Assembly: GCF_029871245.1 (NCBI RefSeq)
Contig: NZ_SSON01000075.1
Coordinates: forward strand, 262,943 to 326,942
Direction of reading: 5' to 3'
Length of the DNA: 64,000 bases
Origin: Pseudomonas sp. BN102
Lineage (GTDB): Bacteria; Pseudomonadota; Gammaproteobacteria; Pseudomonadales; Pseudomonadaceae
A program made the position numbers and the translations under genes. The notes below the pieces were generated by a model. The model was not told where the DNA came from. It made no database searches and saw only the letters and a program-made list of their open reading frames with translations. Below, piece by piece: positions 7,005 through 64,000 of this stretch (position 1 is the stretch's first letter; every line of letters starts with the position of its first letter).

Positions 7005-9854
7005 TTACAGCTTGGCGATCTTCTCGCGCTGTTCGGTCAGGTTGGCCAGGGCCTGTTCGGCTTCGGCCAGCTTGGCGCGCTCCTTGTCGATCACGTCGGC
7101 CGGTGCCTTGGCGACGAAGCCTTCGTTGGCCAGCTTGCCGCCAACACGCTTCACTTCGCCGTCCAGGCGCTGGATTTCCTTGTCCAGGCGGGCCAGTTCG
7201 GCGCCCTTGTCGATCAGGCCGGCCATGGGCACCAGTACCTGCATGTCGCCCACCAGGGCGGTGGCGGACATGGGCGCTTCTTCGCCGGAAGCCAGGATGC
7301 GGACGCTTTCCAGCTTGGCCAGCTTCTTCAGCAGCGGCTCGTTGTCGGCCAGGCGGCGGCGGTCTTCGTCGTTCGCGTTGGCGAGGATGATGTCGATGCG
7401 CTTGGCCATGGAAATATTCATCTCGCCACGGATCTGCCGCACGCCGAGCATGAACGCCTTGACCCACTCGATGTCGCCCTCGGCGGCGGCGTCGATGCGG
7501 GCTTCATTGGCGATCGGCCAGGGTTGCAGCATCAGGGTGTCGCCGGCCTTGCCGGCCTGGGCCTTGATGCGCTGCCAGATTTCCTCGGTGATGAACGGCA
7601 TGAAGGGGTGCGCCAGGCGCAGGGCCACTTCCAGCACGCGGATCAGGGTGCGGCGGGTGCCGCGTTGGCGCTCGATGGGGGCGTTCTCGTCCCACAGCAC
7701 CGGCTTGACCAGCTCGAGGTACCAGGCGCAGTACTCGTCCCAGATGAACTCGTAGAGGGCCTGGGTGGCGAGGTCGAAGCGGAACTGTTCGAGGTGGCGG
7801 GTGACCTCCGCCTCGGTGCGCTGCAGGGCAGAGATGATCCAGCGGTCCACCGAGGACAGCTCGACCGGCTCGTCATTGACGCCGGTGTCCTGGCCATCGG
7901 TGTTCTCGATGACGAAGTTGGCGGCGTTCCACAGCTTGTTGCAGAAGTTGCGGTAACCCTCGACGCGGCCCATGTCGAACTTGACGTCGCGGCCGGTGGA
8001 GGCCAGCGAACAGAAGGTGAAGCGCAGGGCGTCGGTGCCGTAGCTGTTGATGCCTTCGGGGAACTCCGCCTTGGTCTGCTTGGCGATCTTCTCGGCCAGC
8101 TTGGGCTGCATCATGCCGCTGGTGCGTTTCTCCAGCAGGGTGTCGAGGTCGATGCCGTCGACGATGTCCAGCGGGTCCAGGACGTTGCCCTTGGACTTGG
8201 ACATCTTGTGACCCTGGGAGTCGCGCACCAGGCCGTGGACGTAGACGGTCTTGAACGGAACCTGCGCCGTGCCGTCCTCGTTCTTCACCAGGTGCATGGT
8301 CAGCATGATCATCCGGGCGACCCAGAAGAAGATGATGTCGAAGCCGGTGACCAGCACGTCGGTGGGGTGGAAGGTCTTGAGGAACTCGGTCTGTTCCGGC
8401 CAGCCCAGGGTGGAGAAGGTCCACAGGCCAGAGCTGAACCAGGTGTCCAGCACGTCCTCGTCCTGTTCCAGGGCGATATCGCCCAGGTTGTGCTTGGCGC
8501 GGACCTCGGCTTCGTTGCGGCCGACGTAGACATTGCCTTCTTCGTCGTACCAGGCCGGAATGCGGTGGCCCCACCAGAGCTGACGGCTGATGCACCAGTC
8601 CTGGATATCGCGCATCCAGGAGAAGTACATGTTCTCGTACTGCTTGGGCACGAACTGGATACGGCCGTCTTCCACGGCGGCGATGGCCTGCTCGGCCAGG
8701 GGCTTGGTGGAGACGTACCACTGGTCGGTCAGCCAGGGCTCGATGACGGTGCCGGAACGGTCGCCCCTGGGCACTTTCAGCGCGTGGTCCTCGATTTTTT
8801 CCAGCAGGCCCAAGGCGTCGAAGGCTTCGACTATGCGCTTGCGCGCGTCGAAACGGTCGAGGCCGGCGTATTCGGCCGGCAGGCTGGCGTCGACTTCGTG
8901 ATTGACGTCGCCGTCCAGGTTGAAGACGTGGGCGTGGGCCAGCACGGCGGCGTTCTTGTCGAAGATATTGATCAGCGGCAGGTTGTGGCGCTTGCCGACT
9001 TCGTAGTCGTTGAAGTCGTGGGCCGGGGTGATCTTCACGCAGCCGGTGCCGAACTCGGGGTCGCAGTACTCGTCGGCGACGATCGGGATACGGCGGCCAA
9101 CCAGGGGCAGCTCGACGAAGGTGCCGATCAGGCTCTTGTAGCGCTCGTCCTCCGGGTGCACGGCGACGGCGCTGTCACCCAGCATGGTTTCCGGACGGGT
9201 GGTGGCGACTATCAGGTAGCCCTTGCCGTCGGCGGTCTTGTGGCCGTCGGCCAGGGGGTAGCGCAGGTTCCACAGGCTGCCCTTCTCGTCGTGGTTCTCC
9301 ACTTCGAGGTCGGAGATGGCGGTGTGGAACTTGGTGTCCCAGTTGACCAGGCGCTTGCCGCGGTAGATCAGGCCGTCTTCATGCAGGCGCACGAAGGCTT
9401 CCTTGACCGCGTTGGACAGGCCCTCGTCCATGGTGAAACGCTCGCGCGACCAGTCCACGGACGAGCCGAGGCGCCGAATCTGGCGGGTGATGGTGCCGCC
9501 GGACTGTTCCTTCCACTCCCAGACCTTGTCCAGGAAGGTGTCGCGACCGAGGTCGTGGCGGCTGACGCCCTGGGCGGCCAGCTGGCGCTCCACCACCATC
9601 TGGGTGGCGATGCCGGCGTGGTCGGTGCCCGGCTGCCACAGGGTGTTGCGGCCTTGCATGCGGCGGAAGCGGATCAGGGCGTCCATGATGGCGTTGTTGA
9701 AGCCATGGCCCATGTGCAGGCTGCCGGTCACGTTCGGCGGCGGGATCATGATGGTGTACGGGTCGCCGGAACCTTGCGGGGCGAAGTAGTTGTTCTTCTC
9801 CCAGGTCTGGTACCAGGAAGTTTCGATGGCGTGGGGCTGGTAGGTCTTGTCCAT
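7005..9854 (-). CDS. valS: Valine--tRNA ligase
   Basis: Cytoplasmic class I aminoacyl-tRNA synthetase that charges tRNA-Val. At 949 residues it matches the usual bacterial length. The HIGH-type signature is HMGH (residues 47-50, in [13 protein letters not shown]) and the KMSKS loop appears as HKMSKSKGN near residue 552. The central CP1 editing domain, an anticodon-binding region, and a C-terminal Lys/Glu/Ala-rich tRNA-binding coiled coil (about 885-949) are all present. It is the last gene of a leftward pepA-holC-hypothetical-valS set but is separated from the hypothetical gene by about 190 bases with a REP pair. An intrinsic terminator follows the stop. Confidence 0.98.
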
Positions 9855-9964
9855 GGTTCGGCGGGGACCCTAGAGGCAACTGAACGGGAAAACGGAGGAG
9901 TATAGCGGTATCGGGCCGGCGAAAGAATTGGCGCGCATTCAGGCCGATAGCGGAGGTAACACCT

Positions 9965-10022
9965 GCAGGAGCCAGCTTGCTGGCGAAAAAATGGCCCCGT
10001 TCGCGAGCAAGCTCGCTCCTAC
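9965..10022. repeat. REP-like inverted pair
   Basis: GCAGGAGCCAGCTTGCTGGCGAA (9965-9987) faces TTCGCGAGCAAGCTCGCTCCTAC (10000-10022), an imperfect inverted pair of the Pseudomonas REP type. It lies between valS and the upstream hypothetical gene. Compare the perfect pair at 40257-40321. Confidence 0.8.
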
Positions 10023-10042
10023 AGGTTGGAAGCGGATTGGTC

Positions 10043-10492
10043 CTACTGCCGACGCGGCGGCAGCAGGCGGGCCAGGCGGGCGTCGAGGCGGCGCTTGAGT
10101 TCGGCTTCGATCTGCGGCACGAAATCGTCGATCACATCCTGCAGGATCAACTGGGCTGCGGCGCGCAGTTCGCTGTCCAGGCGTGCCAGTTCGGGATTGC
10201 CTTCGGACGTCATGCGCTGGCGAATGGCCTCGGCCACGGGCTGGCTGGAGGAGGGCGAAGGCGCGGGTGCCGGAGTGGCGGGCGCAGCCTGGGGCTGCGC
10301 CTGTGCGGACGACTCCGGCTGCGTCGGGGCTGGCTCGACTATCTCGGAGAGCAACGGAATGCCGTCGGCGTCCAGGCTGTCGGTGAGCAGGGGCGGCTCA
10401 TTGCCGCTGGGTTCGTCATCGAGCAGGGCGCGGATGGATTCGAGGTCGTCCAGCAGGTGTGCCGGCTTGGGGGGAGGCTTGGGAGTATCCAT
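10043..10492 (-). CDS. Conserved hypothetical protein between holC and valS
   Basis: A 149-residue acidic protein without signal peptide or membrane segment. The N-terminal part (DTPKPPPKPAHLLDDLESIR) and the middle (about 55-85) are rich in Pro, Ala, Ser and Gln and probably disordered. The C-terminal third (about 95-149, ELARLDSELRAAAQLILQDV onward) is predicted helical and ends in an Arg-rich tail. The ATG lies 12 bases after the holC stop, which suggests translational coupling, and no clear Shine-Dalgarno sequence is visible. From memory the same position is occupied by a hypothetical gene in other Pseudomonas, so a link to DNA polymerase III chi is possible but unproven. Confidence 0.8.
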   Translation of the reverse strand: MDTPKPPPKPAHLLDDLESIRALLDDEPSGNEPPLLTDSLDADGIPLLSEIVEPAPTQPESSAQAQPQAAPATPAPAPSPSSSQPVAEAIRQRMTSEGNPELARLDSELRAAAQLILQDVIDDFVPQIEAELKRRLDARLARLLPPRRQ

Positions 10493-62428: not shown

Positions 62429-62432
62429 AAGG

Positions 62433-62582
62433 CCGAAGGCCATCTGATGACCCTCTCCCTTTGGGAGAGGGTGCCCGAAGGGCGGGAGAGGGCCTTCCAT
62501 CCGGCTCCGACTTCCCACGCCGAAGGCCATCTGATGACCCTCTCCACTAGGGGAGAGGGTGCCCGCAGGGCGGGAGAGGGCC
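62433..62582. repeat. Two direct copies of a ~62-base palindromic repeat
   Basis: Copy 1 (62433-62494) and copy 2 (62520-62582) both run CCGAAGGCCATCTGATGACC, then CTCTCC, a short variable centre, GGAGAGGGTGCCCG and AGGGCGGGAGAGGGC. Each has an internal CCCTCTCC/GGAGAGGG dyad. A third partial copy of the GGCGGGAGAGGGC end forms part of the following terminator. Dispersed CCCTCTCC...GGAGAGGG repeats are common in proteobacterial intergenic regions. Confidence 0.85.
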
Positions 62583-62664: not shown

Positions 62665-62925
62665 ATGCCGGACCCATTGCTTCCCGAAGTCCGCCTGCTC
62701 CAGCCCGGCGACCGCTGCCTGCTCTGCCGCTGCGGCCGTTCCGCGCAATTGCCCGATTGCCCCGCCGGCTGCGCCGAAGGCGTGCACCTGACCGCCCGAC
62801 GCGAGCAGCGCCTGTTGCTCTGCCGCTGTGGCCAGTCCGGTCGGCTGCCCTGGTGCGATGGCAGCCACAGCCCGCCTACCCCTGGCCTGGGCCAGCGCTG
62901 GCGGCGTTTCTGGAAAGGTGAGTAG
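62665..62925 (+). CDS. Tandem CDGSH-type iron-sulfur protein, first motif altered
   Basis: An 86-residue protein with two CDGSH-like units 32 residues apart. The second is canonical: Cys53, Cys55, Cys64 and His68 in CRCGQSGRLPWCDGSH, the three-Cys one-His ligand set of a [2Fe-2S] cluster. The first keeps the same spacing (Cys21, Cys23, Cys32) but has Cys36 in place of the His and PAGC in place of DGSH. It ends in a basic tail (GQRWRRFWKGE). The role is unknown; bacterial CDGSH proteins are linked to iron or redox homeostasis. ATG 62665 follows the purL terminator. Confidence 0.83.
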   Translation: MPDPLLPEVRLLQPGDRCLLCRCGRSAQLPDCPAGCAEGVHLTARREQRLLLCRCGQSGRLPWCDGSHSPPTPGLGQRWRRFWKGE

Positions 62926-63097
62926 GGCGTCGCACTTATCGCCACGTGCACTAGGTGAGCGCAGAACGCTTTTTCTCGGCATGGGTCCAACTCGCGGTAT
63001 GTGAACGACGCCTCGGCAATGAGTGAAATCAAAGTGCCACTATTGGTGGCATCGTTACCGGGCATGATCCAGCCATCCGACTCATGCGGAGAACCTG

Positions 63098-63124
63098 ATG
63101 TACAAGCTGTGTTTCTACGCTTAG
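63098..63124 (+). pseudogene. 5' remnant of a NIF3/YqfO-like gene, cut after eight codons
   Basis: GGAGA (63088-63092) precedes ATG 63098, which encodes MYKLCFYA and then stops (TAG 63122-63124). MYKLCF(F/Y)VP is, as I recall, the start of a ~100-residue NIF3/YqfO-like protein that is encoded next to purL in Pseudomonas. The match ends at the Tyr codon, and what follows is AT-richer and unlike the gene. I infer that an integrated element replaced the rest of the frame. The protein identity rests on seven residues plus context, so the call is tentative. Confidence 0.5.
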
Positions 63125-63196
63125 ATACATAAAGCCTTGTAAATCAATGGTTTGAAGCCTGTCGGGGTTTGCGATTCTACCCAGTTTTTCTACCCA
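63113..63196. repeat. Short direct repeats at the putative element boundary
   Basis: TTCTAC occurs at 63113-63118 (inside the gene remnant). TTCTACCCA occurs twice, at 63175-63183 and 63188-63196, 13 bases apart. This pattern resembles core and arm-type sites of a tyrosine-recombinase attachment site. The stretch 63125-63232 holds no gene that I can support. Confidence 0.4.
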
Positions 63197-63232
63197 ATCG
63201 AGACACCTGATACCCCGAATGCGAGGCATGAA

Positions 63233-63254
63233 AAAGCCCGCACTACGGCGGGCT
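63233..63254 (-). terminator. Leftward intrinsic terminator
   Basis: AAGCCCGC (63233-63240) pairs with GCGGGCTT (63247-63254). On the minus strand it runs into TTTTTCATG, so it ends leftward transcription from the small gene at 63318-63551. Confidence 0.8.
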
Positions 63255-63317
63255 TCGGGTGGAAGGGGGGTGTCCAACAGCGCTGGTATTCACCTGGGGC
63301 TAGCAATGTAGGGACTC

Positions 63318-63551
63318 TCAACCGAGTTTACGGCTCTCCAAAGCAGAGAACGTATCGCGACACTTCTGCTCAAACTCTGCCTGTGCTTCCTCAGCATCCT
63401 TCTTGGCATCCAGCCAAGGCTGGTAAACAGATGCATGGGGCCATCGGACCTCCTCAAGTATCTTGTTGAGTTTGACTCGCTCCTCCTGACAGATATCAGA
63501 AAGTTCATCAGCGCGATTACGGAGAGTTTCGAGAGTTACAGATGCGGCCAT
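63318..63551 (-). CDS. Small hypothetical protein in the AT-richer tail
   Basis: A 77-residue protein starting MAASVTLETLRNRADELSDI, without signal peptide or membrane helix. It is rich in Glu, Lys, Ala and Arg and mostly predicted helical, perhaps a short coiled coil (EVRWPHASVY in the middle breaks it). I do not recognise it. The Shine-Dalgarno sequence is weak. A leftward terminator 64 bases past the stop supports real transcription. Base composition is lower in GC than the housekeeping genes, so it likely belongs to the integrated element. Confidence 0.55.
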   Translation of the reverse strand: MAASVTLETLRNRADELSDICQEERVKLNKILEEVRWPHASVYQPWLDAKKDAEEAQAEFEQKCRDTFSALESRKLG

Positions 63552-63965
63552 AGAAGTTCACCATGAAGTTGTGGAGTTGCATGGTTGTTAATACTCCTGC
63601 TGCGGCGAGCGAACAAGCCTTTCGGTGTAAAGGAAATTTTCCACAAGGAAGATAGGGGCAATTACGGAGAACTTCCGTAGTTGGCAACTAGAGTATCAGA
63701 GGGGGGGTGCAGAGCAGGCCCCCAACCTTGGGGAGCAACTTCTAGCGGGAGAACTCCGAAAATTTTCTAAAACGGGAGTTGGGGCACTCGGCTAACTGCG
63801 GGAAATCACGCAGTAGGAGTATCGGCGGGGGATGACTCAGATTTGAGTCATGGAAAAACCGACTCAGTGTGGCTCAGGTCTTGATCTAGTCTCCGGCTGC
63901 CCCAGGGGCCTGCAAAGGTCCGTTTTGAATATCGACAGGCATGAAAAAGGCCACAGAAGTGTGGC
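63552..63965. other. AT-richer non-coding region with several dyads
   Basis: About 410 bases without a supportable gene. It contains several small inverted repeats: TACGGA/TCCGTA (63663-63679), AACTCC/GGAGTT (63752-63780) and ATGACTCA/TGAGTCAT (63832-63851). Runs of A/T (AAAATTTTCTAAAA) are unlike the rest of the window. It reads like a regulatory region of a mobile element, upstream of the leftward small gene. Confidence 0.5.
63832..63851. promoter_or_regulatory. Operator-like perfect palindrome
   Basis: ATGACTCA-GATT-TGAGTCAT has perfect 8-base arms. Further half-site-like GACTCA and GGCTCA follow within about 30 bases. This fits a dimeric repressor operator, as in prophage control regions, but no repressor gene is in view. 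Confidence 0.4.
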
Positions 63966-63967
63966 CT
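63948..63967 (-). terminator. Leftward intrinsic terminator near the window edge
   Basis: AGGCCACA-GAAG-TGTGGCCT forms an 8-bp stem with a 4-base loop; on the minus strand it is followed by TTTTTCAT. It should terminate a leftward gene that enters from beyond base 64000. Confidence 0.75.
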
Positions 63968-64000
63968 ATGTGTTGGTGCTGGGGATGTACTGACTTCTGA
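63966..64000 (-). CDS. Possible C-terminal end of a leftward gene
   Basis: On the minus strand one frame from the window edge reads SQYIPSTNT and then TAG (63966-63968), directly at the terminator stem. Only about ten codons are visible, so this is no more than a suggestion based on the terminator position. Confidence 0.25.
   Translation of the reverse strand, partial: RSQYIPSTNT

Follow-up and report, generated by a model that had tools for sequence, protein, structure and literature searches.

At the right end of the window (the whole stretch of 64,000 bp analysed here, G000:C75:262943-326942 of a 523,842-bp contig of Pseudomonas sp. BN102), a coding frame that opens 3' of GGAGAACCTG at position 63098 closes again after eight codons. 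This stub, ATGTACAAGCTGTGTTTCTACGCTTAG, reads MYKLCFYA followed by a stop, and its first 22 bases, ATGTACAAGCTGTGTTTCTACG (63098..63119, plus strand; MYKLCFY, then A-stop), form the attL core, the left copy of a direct repeat, and overlap the site found empty in a congener. From the stub to the edge of the window the GC fraction is 0.514 (63098-64000), against 0.649 over the window, and these 903 bases (63098..64000) are the in-window part of a putative integrative element that continues on the same contig (C75). The stretch between purL and the stub carries an 86-aa CDGSH-type iron-binding protein (62665-62925, plus strand; PF09360, E 6.2e-13, matched in two stretches). At 62430-62580, 3' of purL, lie two near-copies of a G+C-rich stretch (ccgaaggccatctgatgaccctctcc...), similar stretches of which occur on contigs C72 and C62 and which probably constitute a dispersed repeat family.

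Two copies of a short arm-type repeat, TTCTACCCA, follow the stub 13 bp apart on the plus strand (63175..63196; 63175-63183 and 63188-63196). Beyond them lie a perfect 8-bp hairpin resembling a leftward terminator (63234..63255, minus strand), a minus-strand ORF of 77 aa (63318..63551) that shows neither a clear ribosome-binding site nor a family match above cut-off, an operator-like palindrome, ATGACTCA-GATT-TGAGTCAT (63832..63851), and a second terminator-like hairpin (63948..63967, minus strand) 3' of a 188-aa recombinase gene beyond the window. The first-pass annotation, made from the letters of the window, had pointed to the truncated frame with its upstream GGAGAACCTG, to AT-richer DNA and to a near-absence of coding, all of which are borne out; among the several frames listed in 63098-64000, the 77-aa ORF is the one taken as possibly real. 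Its reading of leftward terminators and operator-like palindromes holds in part. The three perfect 8-bp hairpins in 63098-64000, two of them leftward and terminator-like and one the operator-like palindrome, stand against a mean of 0.084 in dinucleotide shuffles, at least three being reached in 0 of 500; however, a terminator scan of L007:500-7600 (window position = L007 position + 62,400), which lists the hairpin at 63948-63967 and not that at 63234-63255, found 4 where 5.4 were expected, so what rises above chance is hairpins as such and not terminators as a class. The leftward hairpin (window 63225-63256) is 97% identical to one on contig C70 (L005, G000:C70:41826-41856). Searches among phages returned no DNA relative of window 63090-64000 and no relative of the 77-aa protein.

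Past the edge of the window, 6,583 bp separate the two copies of the gene start, and the DNA between them has a GC fraction of 0.55, its flanks 0.65 and 0.67. All genes of the element lie on the minus strand, in the order 77-aa ORF, a 188-aa short tyrosine recombinase with little beyond its catalytic domain (L007:1666-2232), a 147-aa protein (L007:2838-3281), a 535-aa zinc-finger/HNH-like protein (L007:3355-4962), a 41-aa ribbon-helix-helix-like protein behind AGGAG (L007:4992-5117) and a 519-aa integrase (L007:5613-7172). The integrase, whose presence beyond the window had been anticipated in the first-pass annotation, lies at the far end in an intact frame without a stop, with DUF6538 and Phage_integrase (PF00589) domains both above their cut-offs and an HSFR motif. 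It is followed by three arm-type repeats (L007:7192-7226), the middle one imperfect, and then by a complete gene on the plus strand (L007:7281-7598), 105 codons from its ATG, with the product MYKLCFYVPESH... / MYKLCFYVPESHLEPVKKAVF..., whose first 22 bases are the right copy of the repeat, ATGTACAAGCTGTGCTTTTACG (attR).

The two copies thus flank the element as the predicted att repeat, imperfect at 20 of 22 identical positions, and both mismatches fall on third codon positions and are silent, which fits a left copy whose 3' part derives from the element and a right copy whose 3' part derives from the host gene. The proposed comparison with a related strain was made on a congener, G015, to which the left flank (L007:168-719) aligns at 9450-10000 and the right flank (7281-7599) at 9979-10297. 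Since these two colinear alignments overlap by exactly 22 bp, G015 is an empty site with a single copy of the repeat. It is virtually inconceivable that there is no element at all, and that the repeat arose by chance or by duplication of the start of the 105-aa gene in ordinary chromosome; nothing was found in favour of such a view, and it is contradicted by the empty site with its 22-bp overlap, the integrase, the arm repeats and the five further genomes in which the site is occupied. Instead, an integrative element of 6,583 bp very probably has its left end at the right end of the window, having recombined within the codons of its target gene and left that gene whole, and the element is perhaps a short member of a satellite family.

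The position of the crossover can be narrowed further. Identity of the two copies over bases 1-14 in the window's genome places strand exchange within those bases, and in three occupied relatives (G151, G194, G359) the right copy starts with T or G and the left with A, which would put the exchange 3' of the first base if these elements recombine at the same place. Either way, strand exchange would fall in codons 1-5, rather than in codons 7-8 where the insertion had earlier been placed. The sequence is consistent with a mechanism in which the integrase would bind the TTCTACCCA arm sites and a core copying the first codons of the gene, and attP x attB recombination would take place inside the first 14 bases. 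The host leader and start would then be left behind at the left end with the 8-codon stub, and at the right end an element leader with its own Shine-Dalgarno would come to precede the gene, the protein remaining unchanged. With less assurance, the six elements found at this site could be a family of small phage satellites, of which the window's copy would be a short and possibly reduced one lacking a tape-measure gene.

What, then, is the target? The first-pass annotation had proposed an interrupted NIF3/YqfO-like gene, and both parts of this proposal need qualification. Residues 1-101 of the 105-aa protein align with residues 161-261 of 2gx8, a NIF3-related solved protein (E 4.2e-21), the matches to 2nyd and 3lnl reach E 4.6e-14, and the protein aligns with SA1388 as well; the matched region is one that we take to be the insert domain of NIF3/YqfO-type proteins. 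A CutA1 match falls just under its Pfam cut-off (21.6 against 22.4 bits), and a P-II family match is weak and likewise below cut-off. The resemblance to NIF3/YqfO is thus to the PII/CutA-like insert domain, but membership of NIF3 proper (PF01784) is rejected: the protein gives no PF01784 hit, and the sole PF01784 place found in the genome lies elsewhere (C75:197776-198507). By these matches, the target is best described as a free-standing PII/CutA-like protein. The rest of the gene does lie at the far junction, as had been foreseen, but it is whole there, and only its leader has been exchanged.

How the restored gene fares with its new leader can be gauged from the sequence to some extent. Pairing of the element-supplied leader with the 16S tail amounts to -6.1 to -10.6 kcal/mol in all six elements, the native leader giving -6.6, and the figure for G359 does not change when the calculation is shifted by one base; background positions that score as well make up 9.4% of the window's element, 5.5% of that of G010 and 0.3-0.8% of the other four, and the putative Shine-Dalgarno of the window's copy is accordingly to be called modest. 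Three relatives owe a TTG or GTG start to the element. A promoter scan listed no sigma-70-like promoter before the restored gene. Plausibly, translation of the 105-aa gene is kept with the leader that the element provides.

The replacement of the 5' end of a gene by an integrating element is not without precedent. Most genomic islands in dusA swap the 5' end of their target for their own sequence (Farrugia et al., 2015; PMC4482086), and the dusA islands and prophages, as described there, share with the window's element an integrase, a conserved site in the 5' part of a gene, imperfect direct repeats and a replaced 5' end. The element at the window's right end differs from them in sitting in a 105-aa PII/CutA-like gene after purL, and not in dusA, and in a crossover so near the start that it leaves the protein as it was and swaps no more than the leader, together with the start codon in three relatives. 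The likeness is one of mechanism, 5'-end replacement. The window's element displays the marks of such 5'-end-replacing elements: an intact recombinase at one end, repeats at the ends, a single copy in the empty site and an open target frame. While the mechanism is known from other islands, neither the insertion site, the integrase clade and the DUF6538 integrases nor the element family were found described in the literature searched, which took in few subscription papers or bioRxiv preprints and, where the lists of results were long, a part of them. What the element adds is a defined chromosomal attachment site, within the opening codons of a PII/CutA-like gene after purL, together with the integrase clade that uses it; since the empty and the occupied allele are both available, excision and the consequences of the swapped leader are directly testable.

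For the first-pass annotation, absence of the full gene after purL from related genomes would have spoken against an insertion. The 105-aa gene is present in all 18 genomes of the genus, starting 450-755 bp past the purL stop in 15 of them, and in the window's genome 669 bp lie between purL and the left repeat. Judged by the spacing between purL and the gene, and for G015 by alignment, 15 of the 18 sites look empty and three are occupied (G000, the window's genome, with 6.6 kb; G010 with 12.5 kb; G013 with 7.5 kb); in these three, 108-118 bases lie between the end of the integrase match and the gene. A survey with a pattern of the first codons across 398 family genomes, themselves a sample of a larger group, gave at least one match in 227 and none in 171, in which occupancy could not be judged because the pattern gave no match there. 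Two matches were seen in seven genomes, of which six were kept: the three above and three further ones in two other genera (G151, G194, G359). The seventh, G230, was rejected as an occupied site, its other match lying about 200 kb away in an unrelated context and reading LYKFCF and then a stop. In G359 the ends of the element lie on two contigs, with parts present on both at 98-99% identity, and another ORF, read as a transposase, splits the integrase (L104, G359:C1:356001-374000; L105, C2:36001-54000).

The integrases at this site are close kin. Among 25 integrases from a family search at E 1e-60, the six form one clade with 100/100 support, a degree of clustering that shuffled labels reached in 0 of 500 trials, the G359 sequence occupying 45% of the columns. 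A tblastn search places the 105-aa gene in 5 of these 25 integrase loci, with that of G359 just outside its locus; in the remaining 19 no copy turned up within 1.5 kb of the integrase match, though an interrupted or farther one may exist. As far as seen, then, insertion site appears to follow integrase clade. Scans of genome contigs and viral contigs with six exact peptide patterns confirmed no integrase relative, and such scans are evidently too narrow, for the genome search did find relatives. The inferred role of the TTCTACCCA repeats as arm-type integrase sites draws on their number and placement: four exact copies occur in 20 kb, where 0.04 would be expected by chance, and all are at the ends of the element. 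In an alignment of four left and five right ends (G194 by its right end only, G359 left out), two such repeats recur on the left and up to three on the right, at the same offsets and 13 bp apart, some of them imperfect.

As to what kind of element this is, the first-pass suggestion of a prophage or genomic island stands in so far as an integrated element is present, but not as regards a prophage. PHROGs and Pfam searches of six proteins of the window's element gave integrase matches and a weak HNH match, and no capsid, terminase, portal or tail gene; an ordinary prophage is rejected for this copy on that ground. No replication gene was recognised among the proteins scanned. A defence island was also rejected, PADLOC giving nothing for the five element proteins scanned, as was an island at a tRNA site, since the four 20-kb stretches L007-L010 hold no tRNA and the repeat sits in a protein gene; nor did any known RNA reach Rfam gathering scores in L007:500-7700. 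Of the 398 family genomes, 22, the window's own among them, encode the 535-aa protein, and in eight of these (G000, G010, G076, G093, G155, G216, G217, G359) its gene is no more than about 6 kb away from an integrase of the family search. The protein has no match in 50,697 phage records, and none in viral contigs by six exact peptide patterns. In an alignment of 25 such proteins, one being the query and two coming from plasmids, C14, C17, C35, H123, N141 and N150 (numbered as in the query) are invariant and C39 is kept in 22. Because of these residues and the weak HNH matches, the protein is read as a putative zinc-finger plus HNH-like nuclease.

A compact element with so few recognisable genes could be what is left of a decaying prophage or genomic island, once large and now mostly ends and immobile. 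The window's element is smaller than the other four whose size could be read (6,583 bp, against 7,481 in G013, 11,174 in G151, 12,476 in G010 and about 13,272, or about 13.3 kb, in G194), there is little coding at its left end, and a tape-measure gene is absent. This possibility is nevertheless rather doubtful, given that the integrase has kept an open frame and its HSFR motif, that both att copies and the arm sites are present, and that the 188-aa recombinase shares 80% identity with a 184-aa protein encoded by the G010 element. Alternatively, the second recombinase might belong to a plasmid-like integrative element, in which it would resolve multimers beside the integrase and which would move by conjugation or transformation. 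All six site elements do have a second recombinase beside the integrase, a serine resolvase in G013, G151, G194 and G359 and a short tyrosine recombinase in G000 and G010; the best Pfam match of the 41-aa protein is NikA-like, though below cut-off, and a partial relative of the 535-aa protein (29% identity over 54%) is carried on pA6H2, a 6-kb plasmid with a recombinase, RelBE and RepB. Yet the scanned proteins of the window's copy include no relaxase or Rep match, four of the six site elements have tape-measure-like genes, and the other plasmid relative lies a few genes from tape-measure and spike genes. On balance, a plasmid-like nature is unlikely.

The integrative element favoured here, with its in-codon recombination, is better placed by its relatives, and it is with these that its main interest lies. 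Tape-measure-like genes are present in the site elements of G010, G151, G194 and G359. The 748-aa protein of G010 matches tape-measure PHROGs at E 8.5e-6 and 5.4e-5, its best PHROG (E 1.6e-7) being one of unknown function, and has no Pfam match, which makes for a weak tape-measure assignment. A tblastn search with this protein hit 70 of 50,697 phage records, of which 67 belong to Pseudomonas phages. Among the best 20 of these 70 records, 19 have genomes of 89-102 kb and 14 carry a tape-measure annotation, and among the 20 matches listed identity is 24-29% over 27-49% of the protein; such phages are probably Pakpunavirus-like myophages. The 554-aa protein of G151 approaches TMP_3 (E 6.6e-10; 39.5 bits, cut-off 41), and has relatives in G194 and G359 and, G151 included, in 12 of 298 genomes; used as query, it did not retrieve the G010 protein at E 1e-10, and the G010 protein in turn matches the G194 and G359 proteins at E 3e-7 and 2e-6. 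Five tape-measure-like queries (tblastn, E 1) gave nothing in the window's element and one chance-level match in that of G013, which has a DUF5906/VapE-like protein in common with the G151 element.

These contents suggest that the six elements at the site form a phage-satellite family, and the longer relatives of the window's element are probably satellites. The satellite reading leans on the relatives, as no tape-measure, capsid or replication gene was recognised in the window's copy. One could go further and picture an unnamed Pseudomonadaceae satellite family in which one integrase clade takes the start of the PII-like gene and the swapped leaders may give the element control over the host protein for as long as it is integrated; longer members would use a tape-measure protein of their own to form chimeric tails with Pakpunavirus-like or related myophages, and the compact copy of the window would rely on helper tails altogether. 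This picture is speculative, and we give it a low chance of being right.

Such satellites would have company among known ones. The Vibrio satellite PLE11 puts its own tape-measure protein into chimeric tails (PMC12987554), putative tmp genes are indicated in PLE-like elements and cf-PICIs in a figure legend of the same source, and putative E. coli satellites with tape-measure genes have been reported (PMC10448857). As there described, PLE and the E. coli satellites resemble four of the six site elements in being small and integrated, with few structural genes and a tape-measure gene of their own (PMC12987554; PMC10448857). The likening of the site elements to PLE is one of description, and the window's own copy departs from PLE in lacking the tape-measure gene. 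Within Pseudomonas, the satellites I23, I44 and I55, reported to be widespread (PMC12595487), likewise have a tyrosine integrase, direct repeats (14-bp in their case) and one conserved site; unlike the window's element, in the account given they target tmRNA and each carry AlpA, and I55 was shown to be transduced by a jumbo phage (PMC12595487). The satellite prophage AH14b of Pseudomonas sp. ANT_H14 is similar by description in its host genus and integrase, and an AH14b-like region in strain TKP has duplicated 18-bp sequences on both sides; it is unlike the window's element in its 16.8 kb, its AlpA and an integrase set beside those of phages S1, F116 and P4 (PMC4936722). The relatives suggest that tape-measure-carrying satellites, as shown for Vibrio PLE, may occur in Pseudomonadaceae too, where they may prey on phages with resembling tape-measure proteins.

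Related elements are also seen away from this site. Loci L107 (G216) and L108 (G076) hold a DUF6538-type integrase together with a relative of the 535-aa protein near a gene read as purC, possibly at a tRNA, and the G216 element (L107) has a tape-measure relative as well. Finally, the G010 element at the present site encodes a 124-aa protein (L065:16344-16718) with matches to HNH endonuclease families of phages (PHROG 953, E 3.1e-21) and a weak one to AP2.
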